A DNA stretch of 43,449 nucleotides, taken from the IMG/VR virus record IMGVR_UViG_3300045747_000395, positions 1 through 43,449 of that record; one strand, 5' to 3'. A program made the translations under genes and the position numbers. The DNA is from a virus. Shown piece after piece: positions 1,304 through 43,449 of the stretch (the stretch's first letter is position 1; each line of letters begins with the position of its first letter). The notes under the pieces are model-generated. The model saw only the letters and a list, made by a program, of their open reading frames with translations, was not told the origin of the DNA and searched no databases.

Positions 1304-1512
1304 GTGCGGTGATAGTCACGTGGCGCAGCACCGGGATCAGACCCGCCAATATCACCCCGGCCTATGCTGCATCCTTTGTGATTTATCCGGTAACCGTTCA
1401 GCCGTTTGTAGTGCGCGGTTTCCCAGCACAAAGCGGCGGCAGTGTGGACGTAGACGGCGGGCAGTTCGGAACAGACAGTCAAAACATTTATGATGGAGGA
1501 ACATTCCCATGA
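1300..1512 (+). CDS. Small protein of unknown function in the fibre operon
   Basis: 70 residues starting at the ATG at 1300, which overlaps the preceding stop (ATGA). Its own stop overlaps the next gene's ATG at 1509 in the same way. The sequence is beta-prone (ITPAYAASFVIYPVTVQPFVV) with a Gly-rich C terminus and no recognisable domain. The two overlaps in a tight plus-strand operon are the main reason to accept it. A structural accessory or fibre chaperone is possible but unsupported. Confidence 0.5.
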   Translation: MSAVIVTWRSTGIRPANITPAYAASFVIYPVTVQPFVVRGFPAQSGGSVDVDGGQFGTDSQNIYDGGTFP

Positions 1513-3050
1513 AGCGAAACCTGATTACAATACTGCTGGTGCTGGCTACGGGCATGTCGGCCCTGGCGGCGACAACTATCGGCACCATCCAGTTCAAACG
1601 TGGTACCGAAGCCAACCTGCCGACACGGGGGAAAACCGGGGAGCCACTCTTTAGCACCGACACTCACCGCGTATTTATCGGCACCTCCAGCAGCCGGATA
1701 GAGCTACTGAAAACCAACGGCAGCGGTGCAGCACTGACCGGCATCACGGCCACCCAAGTCGGAGCGGCTCCAATCGCTAACCCGACCATTACCGGAACCC
1801 TGACAGTACCCGAAATAAACTCCAGCTCCGCAGACGGAACACACTACATCCAGCCTTACAACTCTGTACCCTTCAGCGGCACACCCTTAACTGGTATGAT
1901 AATGACCAACATGAGCGGTATCCGCTGGTATAACGGTTCTGCCTGGGTGCCAGTATCCGGTGCGGTAGACTTGTCAGGAGTTCAACATCAACCCTACGAT
2001 CACACCGTTTCGGGCCTTGTGGCAACCACCATCAAGACCGCTATTGACGAACTTAAAACCCTGTTCACCACACAGATCAACGCATTGATAACAGTGCTGG
2101 AAAACATGGGTGTTCTCCCCCCTGCTGTTTTGTCACTGGATAAATCAGCTCTGACTTTCGGTAATGTGTCCTCAGCATCATACCGTACTCAGGCATTTGT
2201 CATAACCAACACCGGATTCCGCAACCTCTCAACCGGAACCATCAACAAGACTGGAACCGGAGCGACCAAGTTCTCCAGTTACACGGCATGCCAGAACAAG
2301 GTGATTGCAGTCGGCGGTACCTGCACAACCAATGTCAAGTTCACTCCTGGTGCCGCTGGTGACTTTGCCGCTTCTCTGGCTATCAATTCCAACGATCCTG
2401 ATTATGTGACTAATGTTGCGTTGAGCGGCACTGGCGTTGCCAGTTTACCGGTCTATCAGTCAGCGGGTGCAATCGCCACAGGAGCAACAAACCAGATAGT
2501 TTTATCCCCTCCATCCGGTATTCAAAATAACGATATATTGATTGGCATTGTTGGTGGTGGTTATGGTGGCAATACAATGTCATGGCCTGCTGGTTGGACG
2601 GTTATTCAGACCAGTACAACCAACCCAGAAGGCACCTTGGCATGGAAACGAGCTTCAAGCGAATCAGGCAGTTACACTGTTACCGGTCTGAATAGTTATC
2701 CGTATTCGTTTTTTGGCCGAGTTTTCCGTGTCAGCGGGTGTCCCACTTCTGGTAGTCCCATTGACGCATCCAGTATTTATTCTGAAGGATCATCCACGTC
2801 AGCATCTTGGGCGAGCATAACCACTACACAAGCCAATACCCTGGTGATGGCGCTGAGTGCTACACAGAATTACCCGTTTAATTTTTCAAGTTACACGGGA
2901 GGTGGTTATACCTGGACAGGTATAATGGGGTCAGAAGAGGTGCTGGTTGAAACAGCAATAGCAACTACGGCCGGAAGTATCTCCATTACAGCTACTATTA
3001 ATTCAGCCGCTTCAAAAACCCTGGCGGCAGTAGCATTGAGAGGCATGTAA
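1509..3050 (+). CDS. Tail fibre protein: signal peptide, Mtd_N-like domain, ASH/choice-of-anchor-D domain
   Basis: 513 residues. Residues 1-20 form a textbook Sec signal peptide (KRNLITILLVLATGMSALAA, likely cleavage after ALA). Residues about 24-70 (IQFKRGTEANLPT, GEPLFSTDTHRVFIGT) match the N-terminal domain of major tropism determinant-type fibres. Residues about 205-315 (LSLDKSALTFGNVS, VGGTCTTNVKFTP, NDPDYVTNVALSGTG) form an ASH/choice-of-anchor-D immunoglobulin-like domain. The C-terminal 200 residues (AWKRASSESGSYTV) look like a jelly-roll-like surface domain. The gene overlaps both neighbours, so it belongs to the fibre operon. A fibre role fits family and place; the signal peptide does not, since virion fibres fold in the cytoplasm. 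Confidence 0.7.
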   Translation: MKRNLITILLVLATGMSALAATTIGTIQFKRGTEANLPTRGKTGEPLFSTDTHRVFIGTSSSRIELLKTNGSGAALTGITATQVGAAPIANPTITGTLTVPEINSSSADGTHYIQPYNSVPFSGTPLTGMIMTNMSGIRWYNGSAWVPVSGAVDLSGVQHQPYDHTVSGLVATTIKTAIDELKTLFTTQINALITVLENMGVLPPAVLSLDKSALTFGNVSSASYRTQAFVITNTGFRNLSTGTINKTGTGATKFSSYTACQNKVIAVGGTCTTNVKFTPGAAGDFAASLAINSNDPDYVTNVALSGTGVASLPVYQSAGAIATGATNQIVLSPPSGIQNNDILIGIVGGGYGGNTMSWPAGWTVIQTSTTNPEGTLAWKRASSESGSYTVTGLNSYPYSFFGRVFRVSGCPTSGSPIDASSIYSEGSSTSASWASITTTQANTLVMALSATQNYPFNFSSYTGGGYTWTGIMGSEEVLVETAIATTAGSISITATINSAASKTLAAVALRGM

Positions 3051-12260: not shown

Positions 12261-12637
12261 TGAACTATCACAGGGCGGCAGAGATTGTTTTCAATGAATA
12301 CGCCAATTCAGTCGAGAGACACGGCACCTGGGCCGATTACACGATTGAGCAAATGATGAGTGTGATCATTCATGAGCTCATGGTTGAGGCGGGTGGTGCT
12401 GAGCAGATTGGTGATATTCATGGCGACCATGGTGTGATACGTGAGCTCGCCCAGGTGGCGGCGTGTTGTATGAAGGCGATTATGGTGCTGGTAGATCGCC
12501 ACAAAGAGACCTTGGCTGAGACATTACGCCCCGCAGGGGCGCACTCAGGCTTAGAGGGCTGCGTCCTCCCCGCCTCCCCTACCCTTCATCAGGATAAAAA
12601 AGCCTGCTCCAATCATCCTGAAGGGAAGGATATATGA
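12260..12637 (+). CDS. MazG-like helical protein (tentative), early operon
   Basis: 125 residues, start overlapping the previous stop (TGATG). The core (IIHELMVEAGGAEQIGDIHG, then IRELAQVAACCMKAIMVLVD) has the pattern of all-alpha NTP pyrophosphohydrolases: an E-x-x-x-E-A helix, a G-D loop, then E-L-A-x-V-A. The usual E-x-x-E metal motif is not complete, so the enzymatic assignment is weak. The last 35 residues are low complexity. The gene is coupled to the next one by ATGA. Confidence 0.4.
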   Translation: MNYHRAAEIVFNEYANSVERHGTWADYTIEQMMSVIIHELMVEAGGAEQIGDIHGDHGVIRELAQVAACCMKAIMVLVDRHKETLAETLRPAGAHSGLEGCVLPASPTLHQDKKACSNHPEGKDI

Positions 12638-13428
12638 TCACACTCCGATTCGAAGGCATCAAAGAATTTGAGGATCTGTTAGCCAGTGCCGGCAGGAAAG
12701 CGCCAGTTGCTACCCGGAATGCTCTAAATGATCTGGCGTTTATGATTCGTGATGCCGAGATGGAGACAATGCGACGGGTATTTAAAAACCCGATGGAAAA
12801 AACAGTCCGCAATATCCGGGTGCGTAAGGCATCTGCTTCCCTACCGTCAGCAACTATTGCATTCAACCAGATATGGGACTGGGACGAGTACATGGTGCCG
12901 GAGATCGGCGGCGGCCCACGTCCTATGAAGCGATCAGAGAAGGCCTTTGGCCGCTACTATGTGCCGGGTATAGGAGCACAGCTCGATCAGTACGGTAATA
13001 TGCGCGGCAGCCAGGTACAGCAGATCATGTCGTACCTGGGTCAGTTTAAAGAACGCGGCTTTAAGATGAACCGCACTGCCAGCACAACTGTAATGCGGCA
13101 GAAAGGCAAGATCGATTATTTTAAATTGGATGAGCCCAGCCATGGCCTGGCGGCTGGTGTGTATATGCGTACTGACAAGAGCGCCGGGCAGATGATCGTG
13201 TCCCGTGCATTGGCTATGAAGGGTAGGAAAGGCAGTAAGCGCGCTATCAAGTTCCAACACCGCCAAATGCTGGAGCGTGGCGTGATCCCTGTGATGATCT
13301 TTGTCAACAGACCACCGACATATACAAAGCGTTTCCCATTCTATGAGGTGGGCCAGAAGATCATGGATACACACGGTCCTGCTGTGTGTAAGAAGTGGAT
13401 ATCCTGGGTCATGAGTACAGCACGATGA
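12634..13428 (+). CDS. Tail/neck structural protein, minor tail Z / gp10 type
   Basis: 264 residues. The N terminus (ARNALNDLAF-like helix, M-R-R-V-F-K-N-P, then T-V-R-N-I-R-V-R-K-A) and the segment QLDQYGNMRGSQVQQIMSYL at about residues 113-132 are hallmarks of a phage head-tail or minor tail protein family usually found among head-tail genes. Here the gene is at the end of the early operon, coupled by ATGA to the MazG-like gene and far from its usual partners. A virion role is expected from the family; the location is anomalous. Confidence 0.6.
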   Translation: MITLRFEGIKEFEDLLASAGRKAPVATRNALNDLAFMIRDAEMETMRRVFKNPMEKTVRNIRVRKASASLPSATIAFNQIWDWDEYMVPEIGGGPRPMKRSEKAFGRYYVPGIGAQLDQYGNMRGSQVQQIMSYLGQFKERGFKMNRTASTTVMRQKGKIDYFKLDEPSHGLAAGVYMRTDKSAGQMIVSRALAMKGRKGSKRAIKFQHRQMLERGVIPVMIFVNRPPTYTKRFPFYEVGQKIMDTHGPAVCKKWISWVMSTAR

Positions 13429-16222: not shown

Positions 16223-17725
16223 ATGAACCTGCTCGACATCGTACAGAAACGGGTATCAATGAGGAAAGTCGGTGCAGCCGAATACCATGGCCCGTGCCCG
16301 TCCTGCGGAACCAGCCATAAAGACCCGGCCTTCTCCGATCGCTTCAGCGTCAAGGTCAACGCCGGCGGTGAAGATCAGTGGTTCTGCCGCAACTGTGGCC
16401 ACGGTGACACCATCGCCTTCCTCATGCAGTTCGAAGGCATGTCCTTTCCGCAGGCCTGTAAGGAAATAGGCAAAGAACTCCCCGACCAGGAAGAGTACCA
16501 GGCGCCCAAATTTAAGCGCCCCGTCGCTGCCGAAAGCTTCACCGCCCGGGAGATCACCGCACCCGCTGATCTCTGGATCGAGCATGCCGAAAAGTTTGTC
16601 GAGTGGTCCCACCAGCAGCTGCTGGCCCTGGGTGAAGGCGACGGATCCCCGCTGGCCTATCTGTCCGGCCGCGGCATTACCAAAGAAACCGCCATCAAGC
16701 ACCGCCTCGGCTGGAACCCGGGCGAAAAAGGCAAAGACCTCTACAAAGCGCGGGAAGCCTGGGGCCTCGAAACCGTACTGAACGGAGACAAGAAAAAGAA
16801 ACTCTGGCTGCCGATCGGCCTGATCATTCCGTTCTACATCACCGGCACCCTCCGCCGCGTCCGGATTAGGATCCCCAATGCCAACCGCACCCCGCAGTTT
16901 GAAATGTCCTACTACCTGGTGCCCGGATCCTCCATGGACACCTTCATCATCAACCCCGCAGCGCGCGCCTTCGTCATCATCGAAGCCGAACTCGACGCCA
17001 TCCTGGTCGATCAGTTCGCCGGTGATCTGGTCGGTACCATGGCCATGGGCAACAGCACCGCCAAACCAACCACCGAAGCCTTCAGCCTGCTGTCCGATTG
17101 CCTGCACATCTCCAATGCCCTGGACTACGATGCCCGTACCAGCGACGCCGGGAAGTACGAAAACCCCGGCGGGGTAGGGTGGCTCTGGTGGAAAAAACAC
17201 TTTGCCCAGGCCGAGCGCTGGCCGGTACCGGTCGGCAAGGATCCGGGCGACGCATGGAAAGCCGGCATCGATCTGCGCGAATGGGTCAAGGCCGGATTGC
17301 CGCCCGTCCTTACCATGCCGAAACCACAACATGTTGTGTCGAGACCGTCCCTGGGTGCCACAACATCTAGTGAAACAGCCCTAGTTCAGGACAATTCTGG
17401 CGCGGTTGTTTCTGCTGCTACTTCCGAGTGCGAACAGAAACCGGCGACAGTCACCGTGTTCACCGCCAAAGACGGCCGCACCGTCCATATCACCGACGAT
17501 CCGAATGAGTATGCCAACCTGGTCGCCGCCGGTGCCATCGTCTTTGACTCCAAGGAAATCGCCTTTGTCAAACTCACCGGCGCTGATCAGGATCAGAACG
17601 CTCGCTTCCTGGATGCAAAACAGACCTTCCCGGGATCCCGCATCATTGGTGCCGATCCCGACTATGTCCGTACCGAAACCGACCGCTCGCAGTACCAGGG
17701 CAAATATACCAAGGAGACCCCATGA
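16223..17725 (+). CDS. DNA primase: CHC2-like zinc finger plus Toprim
   Basis: 500 residues from the ATG at 16223, which has GGAAGGG upstream; the frame stays open further 5' but into the iteron region. Cys25-x2-Cys28 and Cys55-x2-Cys58 form a DnaG-type zinc finger (PCPSCGTS, WFCRNCGHGD). A Toprim domain follows with Glu254 in VIIEAELDA, the D-x-D pair at 301-303 (DYDAR) and KDPGD at 339-343. Residues about 405-480 form a separate short domain (TVFTAKDGRTVHITDDPNEY). It should make primers for phage replication with the upstream SF3 helicase. It is coupled to the clamp gene by ATGA. Confidence 0.85.
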   Translation: MNLLDIVQKRVSMRKVGAAEYHGPCPSCGTSHKDPAFSDRFSVKVNAGGEDQWFCRNCGHGDTIAFLMQFEGMSFPQACKEIGKELPDQEEYQAPKFKRPVAAESFTAREITAPADLWIEHAEKFVEWSHQQLLALGEGDGSPLAYLSGRGITKETAIKHRLGWNPGEKGKDLYKAREAWGLETVLNGDKKKKLWLPIGLIIPFYITGTLRRVRIRIPNANRTPQFEMSYYLVPGSSMDTFIINPAARAFVIIEAELDAILVDQFAGDLVGTMAMGNSTAKPTTEAFSLLSDCLHISNALDYDARTSDAGKYENPGGVGWLWWKKHFAQAERWPVPVGKDPGDAWKAGIDLREWVKAGLPPVLTMPKPQHVVSRPSLGATTSSETALVQDNSGAVVSAATSECEQKPATVTVFTAKDGRTVHITDDPNEYANLVAAGAIVFDSKEIAFVKLTGADQDQNARFLDAKQTFPGSRIIGADPDYVRTETDRSQYQGKYTKETP

Positions 17726-18897
17726 AATTCGCCATCCCTCAAAAAGAACTATCCATCGCCCTGGCGCGCTGCGCCGCTATAGCCGGAAAAATGACCAGCA
17801 TGCCGATCCTCTCCAACGTCCTGATCGTACCCTGTGCCGGACTGCTGAAGGTCAGCGCCACCGATCTGGAAGTCGGTTACACCACCGCCATCGGCGGCAT
17901 GATCTGGGAAGATGGAATGGAAGACGGCTGTGCCCCCTTCCTGCTCGATGCCAAAACACTGGCCGCCTGCGTCAAGGCCATCCCGGTCGGAGAGGTCACC
18001 TTCACCGTCACCGATAACGTCGCCGTCATCAGCGGGGGCACCATCAGTTTCACTCTCACCGGTCTGGATGCCGAGGACTTCCCAGCCATGGCAAACAATA
18101 CCGAAGAACTGACCCTCACCATCGATCCGGCTGGCCTGTCTCAATCCCTGCGTAACGTCGCCTATTGCCACTCCACCGACGCAACAAAACCAAACCTCAA
18201 CGGCTGCCTGCTCCAGCTAGAATATAACCTCGAAGGCGACCTCTTTGCCGTAACCAGTGCCACCGATGGTCACCGTCTCTGCCTTGACACCAACTCCCTG
18301 GTATTTGAAGACGAAGAAACCAGTGATCTATCGCCGCCGGGACAGTTCATCCCGCCCGCGCTGATCAAGGGCATCATCATCCCAGCCAAAGGTGTTGCTG
18401 AACTGGTTAAGCTCACCGGATCCGGCCCGGGTGTCCTGGGGATCATCGGTAACAGTCTCACCGTCTCCCTGGGTGATGAAGTTCTCACCATTCAACTATC
18501 CGAAGGTGTCTACCCTGATGTTAAGCGAATCATCCCGGAGAATCCCGGCCACATTATCCAGACTAAACGCCAGGCGTTGATCGATGCTCTGGAGCGCTGC
18601 CGGATCATCACCAACAAGGATACCCGCGGCGTAGATCTTTGCGCATTGGGCCACGTCATGGTAATAACCTCCGCGATCCCGCAGATCGGAGCCGAATCCA
18701 CCGATCACGTCACCGTAGAAATCGAAGGCATGCCGCCCATTCTCCGGATCAATATCGACTACCTGCTGCAGGCCCTGGGCAATATCTCCACCGCCTCGGT
18801 AGAGCTGCGCATCACCGATGAACTATCACCCATGATCATCAACCCGGTCGGCACCGACTTCCCTCAAGCCATCGTAATGCCGATGAGAGGTGCCTGA
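17722..18897 (+). CDS. dnaN: DNA polymerase III beta subunit (sliding clamp)
   Basis: 391 residues, close to the 366-380 of bacterial DnaN. It begins KFAIPQKELSIALARCAAI, as clamps do, has three repeated alpha/beta domains (for example VSATDLEVGY near residue 45 and the SATDGHRLCL strand near 180-190), and ends FPQAIVMPMRG, matching the conserved C-terminal strand with P-M-R. It should form a ring that tethers polymerase. Phage-encoded bacterial-type clamps are uncommon; this one probably recruits host polymerase III or is resistant to a host block. Confidence 0.85.
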   Translation: MKFAIPQKELSIALARCAAIAGKMTSMPILSNVLIVPCAGLLKVSATDLEVGYTTAIGGMIWEDGMEDGCAPFLLDAKTLAACVKAIPVGEVTFTVTDNVAVISGGTISFTLTGLDAEDFPAMANNTEELTLTIDPAGLSQSLRNVAYCHSTDATKPNLNGCLLQLEYNLEGDLFAVTSATDGHRLCLDTNSLVFEDEETSDLSPPGQFIPPALIKGIIIPAKGVAELVKLTGSGPGVLGIIGNSLTVSLGDEVLTIQLSEGVYPDVKRIIPENPGHIIQTKRQALIDALERCRIITNKDTRGVDLCALGHVMVITSAIPQIGAESTDHVTVEIEGMPPILRINIDYLLQALGNISTASVELRITDELSPMIINPVGTDFPQAIVMPMRGA

Positions 18898-19466: not shown

Positions 19467-20087
19467 ATGAAACCAATCGCAACAGTAATCAACAACAATC
19501 AACCAGGGTGGACCAACATCATCGAAACCGAGCCAAATGTAACATTGGAGGTTGGCATAAAACTCTATCTTCCGGAACCCTTCGCTGAAATAGGCTCCCC
19601 CTTGGCCGGTGGCTTCTTCGCCGGAGAAATCACCATCGAAGGCGACCGCTACGCCCTGATCGTCGCCCCCAAGGCCTCCGGCGAAAAGTTGGAGCTGGAG
19701 TACAAGCCGAAGGATAGGGGCACAGCCGATGGTACCGACAGCGACGATGACGGCCCGGCCAACACTAAGCGTATCAATGATGTTAACCACCCCGCCGCTC
19801 AGTTCTGCAGTGGCCTGAATATCGGAGGCTTTGACGACTGGTACCTGCCATCGCGAGATGAACTGGCGATGCTGGAGCGTAACCTCGGCCCCTATCGCAA
19901 GAATACCCCGGAACAATTCCGCGAGGATGCCCCGGAGGCGCTCGAAACTAACTGGTACTGGTCAAGCACTGAATACGCTTCGTACTCATACCTCGCCTGG
20001 ATCGTGGGTTTCGACAGTGGCCTCCAGAACGGCTTCAATAAGGACCTCGATTATGGTGTTCGGGCGGTCCGCAGATTGAAACTTTAA
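19467..20087 (+). CDS. DGR target (variable) protein with DUF1566/C-type-lectin-like domain
   Basis: 206 residues from the ATG at 19467, preceded by AAAGGAG. Residues about 120-206 (GGFDDWYLPSRDELAML, NWYWSSTEY, YGVRAVRR) are a DUF1566/Lcl-type C-lectin fold, the usual DGR target fold. Residues 170-194 are encoded by the variable repeat; eleven codons differ from the template Asn codons: Tyr170, Tyr173, Tyr175, Leu176, Asp183, Ser184, Leu186, Gly189, Phe190, Asp193 and Leu194. The N-terminal half (about 1-118) is unknown and has no signal peptide or fibre domain. It heads the cassette of target, Avd, TR and RT. The ligand-binding face is expected to be diversified; how the protein is displayed is unclear. 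Confidence 0.9.
   Translation: MKPIATVINNNQPGWTNIIETEPNVTLEVGIKLYLPEPFAEIGSPLAGGFFAGEITIEGDRYALIVAPKASGEKLELEYKPKDRGTADGTDSDDDGPANTKRINDVNHPAAQFCSGLNIGGFDDWYLPSRDELAMLERNLGPYRKNTPEQFREDAPEALETNWYWSSTEYASYSYLAWIVGFDSGLQNGFNKDLDYGVRAVRRLKL
19974..20076 (+). repeat. DGR variable repeat (VR)
   Basis: 103 bases, gap-free match to the template repeat at 20649-20751. They differ at 18 positions; 16 are at template adenines (8 to T, 5 to G, 3 to C) and two are not (T to C at repeat base 21, G to T at base 84). The last 19 bases are identical and include the GC-rich CGGGCGGTCCGCAG, the likely initiation-of-mutagenic-homing element. The adenine bias is diagnostic of DGR retrohoming. Confidence 0.95.
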
Positions 20088-20122
20088 CTATTTAACCATT
20101 TACCACTTTAAAAGGAAACATC

Positions 20123-20476
20123 ATGGCACTGGCATCAACACTACCAATATATCGCGTCACGTATGAGCTGCTGCAGGTAGTCACTCGCATCACCAAAGAC
20201 ATGCCCCGTGACTACAAGCAATCGCTCGGCAGCAAGATCCGTGAGGAATGCGTTGAATTGACTGTGCTGATTTACCGGGCGAACTGCTCCCGTGACAAGC
20301 GCCCACATCTGGAGACTCTGCAGGAACATCTCCAGGTGGCGACGCTGCTGCTCAGACTGTCCAAGGACATGCGGCTGATCAGCACGGGGCAGTTCGCCCA
20401 AACCGTTGAACTGACCGATCAGATAGGCCGTCAGGCCTCCGGTTGGCTCAAGTCCACATCGTCGCCTGCTGCATAG
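20123..20476 (+). CDS. avd: DGR accessory variability determinant (Avd), four-helix bundle
   Basis: 117 residues with AAAGGA upstream. It matches the Avd/23S-intervening-type four-helix-bundle family in order: PIYRVTYELLQVVTRI, MPRDYKQSLGSKIREECVEL, then LLLRLSKDMRLIS and a final helix ending R-Q-A-S-G-W-L. Avd forms a basic pentamer that binds the reverse transcriptase and template RNA and is needed for homing in phage BPP-1. It lies between target and template, the same order as in BPP-1. Confidence 0.9.
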   Translation: MALASTLPIYRVTYELLQVVTRITKDMPRDYKQSLGSKIREECVELTVLIYRANCSRDKRPHLETLQEHLQVATLLLRLSKDMRLISTGQFAQTVELTDQIGRQASGWLKSTSSPAA

Positions 20477-20648
20477 CCGTCATGGCGGCTCTGCCTGTGC
20501 GAAATAATCTGGTCGTGCCCCTGGGGATAGGCCCCACGGTCAAGCGCCCTAAGACGAAACCGGCGGGCATATGGTCCCGACAGGTCGCGGCGCAGTTTCA
20601 GGATGGATCGACTCTGCCTTCTCTCTTGCAACGTGAGCAGCACGACAT
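20477..20648 (+). ncRNA. Upstream part of the DGR template RNA
   Basis: About 170 bases between the avd stop and the template repeat. It contains GC-rich self-complementary segments (GCCCCTGGGG near 20517, then GGCCCC near 20528). In the BPP-1 DGR the avd-to-RT spacer RNA flanking TR is required for template-primed cDNA synthesis, so this is likely part of that RNA. A reading frame open here in the RT frame has no ribosome site and is not taken as coding. Confidence 0.5.
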
Positions 20649-20751
20649 AACGCTTCGAACTCAAACAATGCCTGGATCGTGGGTTTCAACAATGGCAACC
20701 AGAACAACAACAATAAGAACAACGATTATGGGGTTCGGGCGGTCCGCAGAT
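20649..20751 (+). repeat. DGR template repeat (TR)
   Basis: 103 bases, the unmutated template for the VR at 19974-20076. It is packed with AAC/AAT triplets; in the target frame it reads Asn at every diversified codon (for example N-Q-N-N-N-N-K-N-N), then D-Y-G-V-R-A-V-R-R and a stop. The 3' end shares the GC-rich homing element with VR. It overlaps the likely 5' end of the reverse-transcriptase gene in another frame. Confidence 0.95.
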
Positions 20752-21861
20752 AATAGCGATGTGGATGTAACGGTGGATGAACTGCTGTGCGCCTATTACG
20801 ACTGCCGCCGGCGCAAGCGCAATACCATCAATGCGTTAAAATTTGAAACAAACCTGGAGCGTAACATCATGGATCTGTACCGGGATCTAATAGACGGCAG
20901 CTATCGTCCCGGTACCTCCATCTGCTTTGTCGTCACCCGGCCAAAACCCCGAGAGGTATGGGCTGCCGATTTCCGCGACAGGGTAGTGCATCACCTACTT
21001 TACAACCGGATAGCGGATCGCTTCCACCGCTCATTTATCACGGACAGTTGTGCCTGCATACCTGGTCGGGGCACCCTGTACGGAGCAAAGCGCCTGGAGC
21101 ATAAGATCAGGAGCATTACCCAGAACTGGTCGCAGCGTGCCTATTACCTGAAGCTGGATCTGGCCAACTTCTTTGTCAGCATCGACAAAAACATCCTCCG
21201 GGATTTGCTGGCCCGGAAGATCGCAGAGCCGTGGGTCATGTGTCTGGCTGAAACTATCCTGTTCCACGATCCACGGGAAAACGTCCAGATCAAGGGCGCA
21301 TCAAAACTACTGGCCCTGATCCCTCCGCATAAGAGCCTCTTCAACCAACCGGCGCACCTAGGGCTCCCGATCGGCAATCTCAGCAGCCAGTTTTTTGCCA
21401 ACGTCTACCTGGATGCCCTCGATCAGCACATCAAGCATCGCATCGGGGCAAAGCATTACATCAGGTATGTGGATGACATGATCCTGCTGCACAAATCACC
21501 GGAATGGCTGAATGCTGCAGCTGCCGAGATAAGCTGCTTTGTGCAGGACCGGCTCGGCATGGCCCTAAACCCACGCAAAACAATTCTCCAGCCGATTGAC
21601 AGGGGAGTGGATTTTGTCGGGCAGATCATCAAACCCTGGCGCCGGGTAACCCGTAAGACCACGCTTGAAAATGCGGCTGCTGCACTTGCCGGCAAGAGTG
21701 GTGAAGATTTAATGATGAGCGCAAACAGTTATCTCGGTTTGCTGCGACAAGCCAGCAGCAGCCATAACTCCCGTGCTCGGTTGTCTCGTATTGTAATTGG
21801 TAAGGGGCATTGTGTGGACAGTCAGTTCAGAAAGATATTCAGAAAGAAGGTATCAGCATGA
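20728..21861 (+). CDS. DGR reverse transcriptase
   Basis: About 377 residues from ATG 20728; GTG 20761 or 20776 would give the more usual N terminus, and no strong ribosome site decides. RT motifs in order: F-R-D-R-V-V-H-H-L-L (motif 1-2), LKLDLANFFVSIDKNIL (motif 3, first catalytic Asp), LPIGNLSSQFFANVYLDALD (21373-21390 encodes GNLSSQ, the DGR-type G-x-x-x-S-Q signature), YVDD at 21466-21477, and K-T-I-L-Q-P-I followed by V-D-F-V-G-Q. It should copy TR RNA into cDNA with errors at adenines. It is coupled to the next small gene by ATGA. Confidence 0.95.
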   Translation: MGFGRSADNSDVDVTVDELLCAYYDCRRRKRNTINALKFETNLERNIMDLYRDLIDGSYRPGTSICFVVTRPKPREVWAADFRDRVVHHLLYNRIADRFHRSFITDSCACIPGRGTLYGAKRLEHKIRSITQNWSQRAYYLKLDLANFFVSIDKNILRDLLARKIAEPWVMCLAETILFHDPRENVQIKGASKLLALIPPHKSLFNQPAHLGLPIGNLSSQFFANVYLDALDQHIKHRIGAKHYIRYVDDMILLHKSPEWLNAAAAEISCFVQDRLGMALNPRKTILQPIDRGVDFVGQIIKPWRRVTRKTTLENAAAALAGKSGEDLMMSANSYLGLLRQASSSHNSRARLSRIVIGKGHCVDSQFRKIFRKKVSA

Positions 21862-43100: not shown

Positions 43101-43401
43101 AGTCCAAACCGTTCGGGTCAGCGGTCAAGCAGTGTGGACTCTCGGCAGCATGTCCGATGCGTGGGACGACATCAGCGAACTGGACGGCATGCTCGGCATC
43201 GACGCAGCCGCATACGGCGGTAATGTAACGATGAACATTTACACCTCGCAGGATGCCAGTGCACCGACCTTCAAGCAGCCTTTGTTTGCCGGGGATTATG
43301 TTTTCCGCCGCGCCCGCTTCGAGCTGGTCGCCGTCTGCAACAACACCGATACACTGATCCAGCTTTCGGATTTCACCGTTACCGTTAATTCTTACGCCTG
43401 A
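40126..43401 (+). CDS. Tail tip / central hub protein with FN3-like domain
   Basis: 1091 residues, the largest gene. Residues 1-310 hold beta-sandwich domains (TIQGRKDAGAWQDLQTLQV, WEFKVLMTRWVPLFIKVDGL). A middle part (about 430-720: RNILKKFNRKVPSANYFLDV, IMQAMLQLADELGIPDRYLD, SDLMNELAVSAGVFLVEGAD) resembles tail hub proteins of siphoviruses. A fibronectin type III-like domain (ITLEWSPVSDIDLKEYVVCY) lies near 865-925, and the C terminus is a beta sandwich. Its end continues through the circle junction into the fibre genes at base 96. Probable baseplate hub and fibre attachment site. Confidence 0.75.
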   Translation: MPTPAFIAAASAANRQPVALLAIESVDAIKRAITTKDEWLAGTLVNLNALTEPGKLYMTTDGIEPYSGTYTGPVTAVGVLSSDSVITGYGPLNIYNGYYADYADLSGETASVNIGPLSTGVKLHFHTRVSAPLTFPIAGRGWIGIVHLTIQGRKDAGAWQDLQTLQVNGTNYSYESAAQHYRDTDITLSGLARGTWEFKVLMTRWVPLFIKVDGLSFDTPAINMVSFEQAYETHYLPTGSVSTSSVDLGTIPTQASRFESDDICPPGCSIAYNIWGGNDGASWTALGSIADGGSVAAYRYYRFSADLVSSGMATPVIDELRIVGGNSQYDYFSTRKDEPIQGARPYIAPGGISSISSKISLTSPATVGELTIKLFWTREVGDMIATGYLKNKTISSKIGFPGLSEQEFEPFFTGTWYDYQADSEKQIITVKTRNILKKFNRKVPSANYFLDVNGQAYVPPRLFTITGNIMQAMLQLADELGIPDRYLDRAAFNSLASGARTGTNWDIRRDIFEPQDASDLMNELAVSAGVFLVEGADGRLTVQLYDDITIAEPVATLDAKYHKFRQIDGGQKELFTRQTIYYQLLPGKDGGAASDYAKGLVYINQQAEIDWEESGTMEWMDKWGLSVYAIQKLAQRRDGWFANPLSSVKVENLPPRFWDIKAGQVVAVNNLQLPCPAAQWQGYTTGTRFLVMSKTTSDPTTDNLSISLDLMQIGDPAFVIDPDFPSYTPFEFFPAITNLELSERLIILPGGSVDTVLDVAYTCPTDFHYGAASIWAQVGGGAWELKGRQEYGGPSSARLFSFSVPDLQTVKVAILTINAAGQIMPLEQAPNASHFVIGKTAPPEDITDIAAIANISGAITLEWSPVSDIDLKEYVVCYSPLTTGAVWANSSEIQRTGRIPRATIPAALTGTYLVKALDTSTPGNFSLNAASVVVATVPTYITSTLHSLIDEAPAWDGTATNMTVVGDLLKLNPTIGNLSGSYLAASEVDLGTVQTVRVSGQAVWTLGSMSDAWDDISELDGMLGIDAAAYGGNVTMNIYTSQDASAPTFKQPLFAGDYVFRRARFELVAVCNNTDTLIQLSDFTVTVNSYA

Positions 43402-43449
43402 TATTAAAGGAGAAACCATGAAGCGCTTTATCATCGTATTTTTTCTTTT
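43323..43449. repeat. Direct terminal repeat (right copy)
   Basis: Exact copy of bases 1-127. It contains the end of the tail-tip gene, its TGA at 43399-43401, the AAAGGAG site and the first codons of the fibre gene. Confidence 0.95.
43418..43449 (+). CDS. 5' end of the fibre gene (partial, repeated)
   Basis: The first 32 bases of the 278-residue fibre gene, identical to 96-127. On the circular molecule this is the same gene. Confidence 0.95.
   Translation, partial: MKRFIIVFFL

Follow-up and report, generated by a model that had tools for sequence, protein, structure and literature searches.

The descriptions of diversity-generating retroelement (DGR) RNA mechanism that we found concern BPP-1, whose element runs mtd-avd-TR-brt and in which the structured RNA and the priming adenine both lie 3' of the template. 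The BPP-1 TR comes directly after avd, a 144-nt structured spacer (RF03022, Phage_DGR) separates TR from brt, and a stem-loop stands after VR. Bacillus phage BalMu-1 likewise carries a structured RNA, RT-14, on the 3' side of its TR, and in seven other phages the TR lies close to avd with a 3' gap before the conserved RT. Another structured RNA, RT-15 (RF03018), is named in Rfam only as an RT-numbered sRNA; its original description is probably that of Weinberg et al. 2017. In BPP-1, cDNA synthesis is primed from an adenine 3' of TR (PMC12875486). An architecture class in which TR overlaps the annotated RT ORF was noted in 2012 (PMC3521204), and the viral targets of three DGR clades are mostly predicted tail proteins (PMC8144416).

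The window analysed here comprises all 43,449 nt of the viral record IMGVR_UViG_3300045747_000395. A perfect 127-bp direct terminal repeat (1–127 and 43323–43449) makes it probable that the genome is complete and circularly closed. The original prediction placed a complete DGR in this genome, in the gene order of BPP-1. The features of the locus are as follows.

19467–20087, plus strand: target gene, 206 amino acids, Lcl_C/DUF1566 variable protein (Pfam PF07603)
19974–20076, plus strand: VR, from its gapless match to TR with 16 of 18 differences at TR adenines
20058–20076, plus strand: IMH-like 3' end of VR, GC-rich and the same as in TR
20123–20476, plus strand: avd, accessory variability determinant, 117 amino acids (Pfam bAvd PF22296, PHROG 3206)
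20460–20652, plus strand: RT-15 structured RNA (RF03018), 129.9 bits against a gathering score of 82, E = 5.9e-32, overlapping the first 4 nt of TR
20649–20751, plus strand: TR, from the VR/TR alignment and a genome-wide match search
20733–20751, plus strand: IMH*-like 3' end of TR, which encodes ...SAD in the frame of the RT
20692–21861, plus strand: RT, 389 amino acids from an in-frame ATG inside TR (PHROG 1423, RVT_1, start-codon comparison)
20482 (ATG), 20761 (GTG) and 20773 (GTG), plus strand: alternative starts of RT
21370–21390, plus strand: DGR-type RT motif IGNLSSQ (GxxxSQ), from the sequence
21466–21477, plus strand: catalytic YVDD, from the sequence

The repeat pair was re-aligned, and every figure first read from it was reproduced exactly: VR and TR align over 103 nt without gaps, eleven Asn codons are altered in VR (to Y, L, D, S, G and F), and the 3'-terminal 19 nt are identical. 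Adenines of TR account for 16 of the 18 differences (35 A in 103 positions; hypergeometric p = 1.7e-7), the remaining two being T to C and G to T. None of the 18 differences falls at an adenine of VR, which makes the direction from TR to VR clear. When the whole genome was scanned with adenine mismatches tolerated, VR was the best match to TR, with 2 non-adenine mismatches compared with at least 32 at any other site. The genome thus holds a single VR, and the possibility of another copy elsewhere in its 43,449 nt was rejected.

The protein components were then assigned to families. The avd product matched Pfam bAvd PF22296 (1.9e-16) and PHROG 3206, "Avd protein of DGR" (2.5e-34). The RT matched PHROG 1423 (1.2e-111) and Pfam RVT_1, carried both the YVDD and the G-x-x-x-S-Q signature that had been reported for it, and grouped with DGR RTs in a tree of 33 RTs; its best match among solved structures was the reverse transcriptase 8ub7 (4.7e-38), which we take to be BPP-1 bRT. 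With target, Avd and RT each matching their families and the adenine bias of VR/TR confirmed, the assignment of a complete DGR stands. Every general DGR feature that could be tested was found, among them a C-terminal VR in a target resembling C-type lectins (as judged by the Lcl_C match and the structural model described below). Two features specific to BPP-1 were lacking, namely the RF03022 3' spacer and an inverted repeat after VR; just 3' of VR the inverted-repeat search returned arms of 6 nt at most. In one related DGR (L077:5470-6001), no Avd was detected and the target lies directly upstream of TR.

For comparison with relatives, 80 related loci were collected from viral contigs, with further loci from isolates and bacterial genomes. 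VR variability among related phages had been proposed as a check on the element, and VR proved not to be invariant. Two contigs from different metagenomes, L009 and L015, both with the window's order target-avd-TR-RT-terS-terL-portal, differ at 14 positions in 8,516 nt. Every one of these lies in the VR of the target ortholog, opposite a TR adenine, and the TR and a second VR are identical. Random placement would give this pattern with a chance of about 1e-32. Similarly, all 14 VR differences between L022 and L023 lie at TR adenines, with TR unchanged and six more differences over 2,643 nt. An adenine-tolerant tally of TR/VR pairs is biased by construction and was replaced by a scan blind to the template base; over 131 TR/VR pairs this gave a mismatch frequency of 0.53 at TR adenines compared with 0.12–0.19 at C, G and T. 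Such sequence comparisons show adenine-specific VR change in nature within the clade. For the window's own copy, the single VR/TR pair taken together with the relatives suggests that it too is active. A decayed element that no longer retrohomes is very improbable: the two non-adenine TR/VR differences would fit a repeat that has drifted since the last homing, but Avd and RT are intact with their catalytic motifs, the 19-nt 3' end is identical, RT-15 scores well above its threshold and the relatives are active. Seven close relatives (L002, L004, L006, L009, L010, L012 and L015) carry two tandem target genes, each with its own VR, and the window has one, indicating that target number changes quickly.

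The interval of about 172 nt between avd and TR, missed in the first reading, was found to be a structured RNA. By the Rfam covariance model it is a full-length member of RF03018 above the gathering cut-off, and RT-15 was the only Rfam family reported at E ≤ 1 in 19900–21200; the BPP-1-type structured spacer RF03022 was not found 3' of TR in the same scan. The BPP-1 order of the original prediction therefore holds for the genes (target-avd-TR-RT) and fails for the RNA layout, in which the structured RNA lies 5' of TR and TR is fused in frame to RT. Among relatives, the avd-TR interval is kept, with compensatory changes and with indels not divisible by three. Across 21 diverse loci, the 44 pairs of the structure hold in 94.9% of cells, 25 of these pairs showing compensatory (two-sided) change; none of 500 shuffles reached these values, and sliding the partners destroyed them. 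Folding energy by itself was unexceptional (z = 0.70) and hence uninformative, and the evidence for the structure is the covariation together with the match to the Rfam model. RT-15 scored above the gathering threshold in every scanned relative of the clade with a full interval (that of L014 is incomplete), the carriers including the isolates Magia, phPA-G, QDWS and LPPA56 and two Geobacteraceae contigs. At the 27 loci measured, its 3' end overlaps the start of TR by 2–12 nt. The invariant RT-15 loop ATCTGGT and the TR 3' end CAGAT are possible pairing partners, but both hardly vary and we make no claim of pairing. Two type II hammerhead ribozymes (L006:2507-2587 and L006:3320-3385) were also seen upstream of the DGR in a related phage.

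Given its position immediately 5' of the RT reading frame, RT-15 could instead be a cis-regulatory leader for RT translation or transcription, with priming at an unrecognised site 3' of TR within the RT coding sequence. Priming of that kind, from an adenine 3' of TR as in BPP-1, would then be the conserved way. At every locus measured, however, RT-15 ends a few nucleotides from the start of TR and not at a start codon, and the structured RNAs of BPP-1 and BalMu-1 stand on the other side of TR, so that there is one such element per layout. The first RT codons show no clear drop in synonymous change, at either 14 close or 77 wider loci, and no hidden 3' structure is seen there; a spacer concealed in the RT coding sequence was rejected on these grounds. 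Folding of 20752–20900, the 5' end of the RT, was not unusual. We therefore regard a leader as unlikely and favour RT-15 as a domain of the template RNA.

Continuity between TR and the RT was next assessed by frame comparison. In almost every relative no stop interrupts the RT frame within TR, but AAC-rich templates rarely hold stops in this frame, so openness alone is weak evidence. More telling was the SAD encoded by IMH*, which was read in the RT frame, as such or as a near variant, in 82 of 84 loci (not all of them independent) at nine different spacings (14–22 codons) from the RT core. When frames were assigned automatically from the targets, 73 of 79 loci shared a single TR-RT phase. Four of the six exceptions (L044, L046, L058 and L082) still read SAD in frame and were attributed to truncated or misassigned targets; L039 and L043, each with an ATG after TR, are real breaks of the phase (2 of 84). 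Conservation of the frame across indels indicates, on sequence grounds, real translation through the TR-RT junction.

Where translation begins was approached through the available start codons. Half of the loci (42 of 84) have no ATG, GTG or TTG between TR and the RT core, and all 42 have an in-frame ATG in or before TR. Within the close clade, the sole ATG common to all 15 loci is that at 20692, inside TR, although this ATG also falls within a conserved Asn-Gly pair of the target frame and its conservation alone is no proof of a start. In the annotation of phage Magia, the RT begins upstream of TR. The ATG right after avd (20482) was considered and rejected as the start: the frame from it is open in the window but the start is not conserved, as indels in the interval shift the frame among close relatives, five of which reach a stop after 26–27 codons. 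RT translation thus appears to start inside or upstream of TR.

The target was examined by profile search and structure prediction. It matched Pfam PF07603 (Lcl_C) with E = 2e-13, and its AlphaFold2 model had a mean pLDDT of 86.9. The best solved match to the model was the C-terminal domain of Legionella Lcl (8q4e; Foldseek E = 2e-5), followed by C-type lectins with weak scores, so that a C-type-lectin-like fold is predicted. A simple scan of 22 target homologues found neither a hydrophobic N-terminus nor a lipobox.

In the window, the DGR has the phage's DNA sliding clamp gene on one side and the terminase genes on the other, a position among replication and packaging functions and outside the tail module. 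The clamp gene (17722–18897, plus strand) encodes a full-length homologue of DNA polymerase III beta with all three domains. A minor-tail-protein-like gene (12634–13428, plus strand; PHROG 1924) was also noted in the early region, away from the tail module. In the isolates Magia, phPA-G and QDWS the DGR sits among recombination, repressor or integrase genes, and its neighbours in other sampled loci are RecE, SbcC-like, methyltransferase, PAPS reductase, HNH and integrase genes. In L004 and L006 it adjoins terminase and what we take to be Mu-like early genes.

This setting bears on the reading of the locus as an ordinary tropism-switching DGR of the BPP-1 type, in which the target would be a virion receptor-binding protein encoded away from the tail genes and the RNA layout would have no functional meaning. 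Such a reading would accord with the shared gene order, with the prediction of most viral targets in three DGR clades as tail proteins (PMC8144416), and with the structure matches, in which Lcl_C/DUF1566-like folds also turn up in phage proteins annotated as tail fibres or virion structural proteins. The non-tail position speaks against it, both in the window and in the isolates and other sampled relatives, whereas relatives with a 3' spacer do have the DGR beside tail genes. Moreover, the window has a tail-region gene (1509–3050, plus strand) for a 513-amino acid protein with an Mtd_N domain (the N-terminal domain of the BPP-1 tropism determinant) and an Ig-like domain; it carries no VR, and its product, distinct from the DGR target, is a candidate receptor-binding protein. 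On balance we find a BPP-1-type function doubtful. The non-tail position, together with the lack of signal peptide or lipobox in the targets, favours a soluble variable binding protein outside the tail.

Taken as a whole, the locus is very probably the DGR of a temperate phage that acts by mutagenic retrohoming into a C-type-lectin-like target, with a template RNA laid out around RT-15 on its 5' side. The TR RNA would be copied by a complex of RT and Avd with errors opposite adenines, and the resulting cDNA would replace VR in the target gene. Within the template RNA, recruitment of RT-Avd may fall to RT-15, in the role played by the 3' spacer of BPP-1. With the RT translated through TR, a single molecule may be unable to serve both as template and as message. 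The target could serve as a soluble variable binding protein outside the tail, e.g. in early infection or lysogeny.

A broader proposal, which we put forward tentatively and at somewhat less than even confidence, is that two mirror-image template RNAs are tied to two RT lineages, one with a 3' spacer (BPP-1) and one with a 5' element (RT-15). In the latter, the recruiting domain would precede the template, the RT would be translated through the template, priming would be unlike that of BPP-1, and the target would typically be a soluble non-tail protein with a role other than receptor switching. In the tree of 33 RTs, the RT-15 and 3'-spacer groups fall on separate sides with support of 96/96 and 100/99. 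Bacteroides phage F2 and a cyanobacterial MAG are placed beside the RT-15 side, F2 on a long branch and with an unsure placement; both have a gap before TR, a short gap after it and an RT start after TR.

DGRs without the 3' spacer, in which another conserved RNA stands on the opposite side of the template, form a large group in phages and prophages, mostly those of Proteobacteria. How cDNA synthesis starts in the RT-15 layout would tell which features of DGR priming are general, and the non-tail position makes it testable whether phages use DGRs beyond receptor switching. The results also point to a specific candidate function for RT-15, which is identified here by no more than an RT number. 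None of the papers searched was found to describe an association of RT-15 with the TR 5' end, and priority is not claimed. Nor is the window itself a unique case, since dozens of public genomes share its layout and RT-15 was already a family in Rfam.

Compared with known systems, the window resembles the BPP-1 DGR in gene order, strand, Avd, DGR-type RT, adenine-specific TR/VR change, a GC-rich identical 3' end and a lectin-like target. It differs in the 172 nt, including RT-15, that precede TR, in the lack of a spacer behind TR, in an RT frame continuous with TR and in a target outside the tail module, and no stem-loop was found after VR. As in the "group 3" DGRs of DiGReF, TR overlaps the 5' end of the RT ORF (PMC3521204); that group was defined on annotation only, whereas here the frame is kept across indels. 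The fixed place of RT-15 at the TR 5' end of DGRs, as observed here, adds to what its Rfam name conveys. Closest among named phages are Burkholderia phage Magia, Pseudomonas phages phPA-G and LPPA56 and Shewanella phage QDWS, whose RTs are 60–64% identical to that of the window. These differ from the window in host and backbone and carry more than one VR each, but share with it RT-15 directly 5' of TR, a non-tail position and, where examined, an RT frame that runs into TR.
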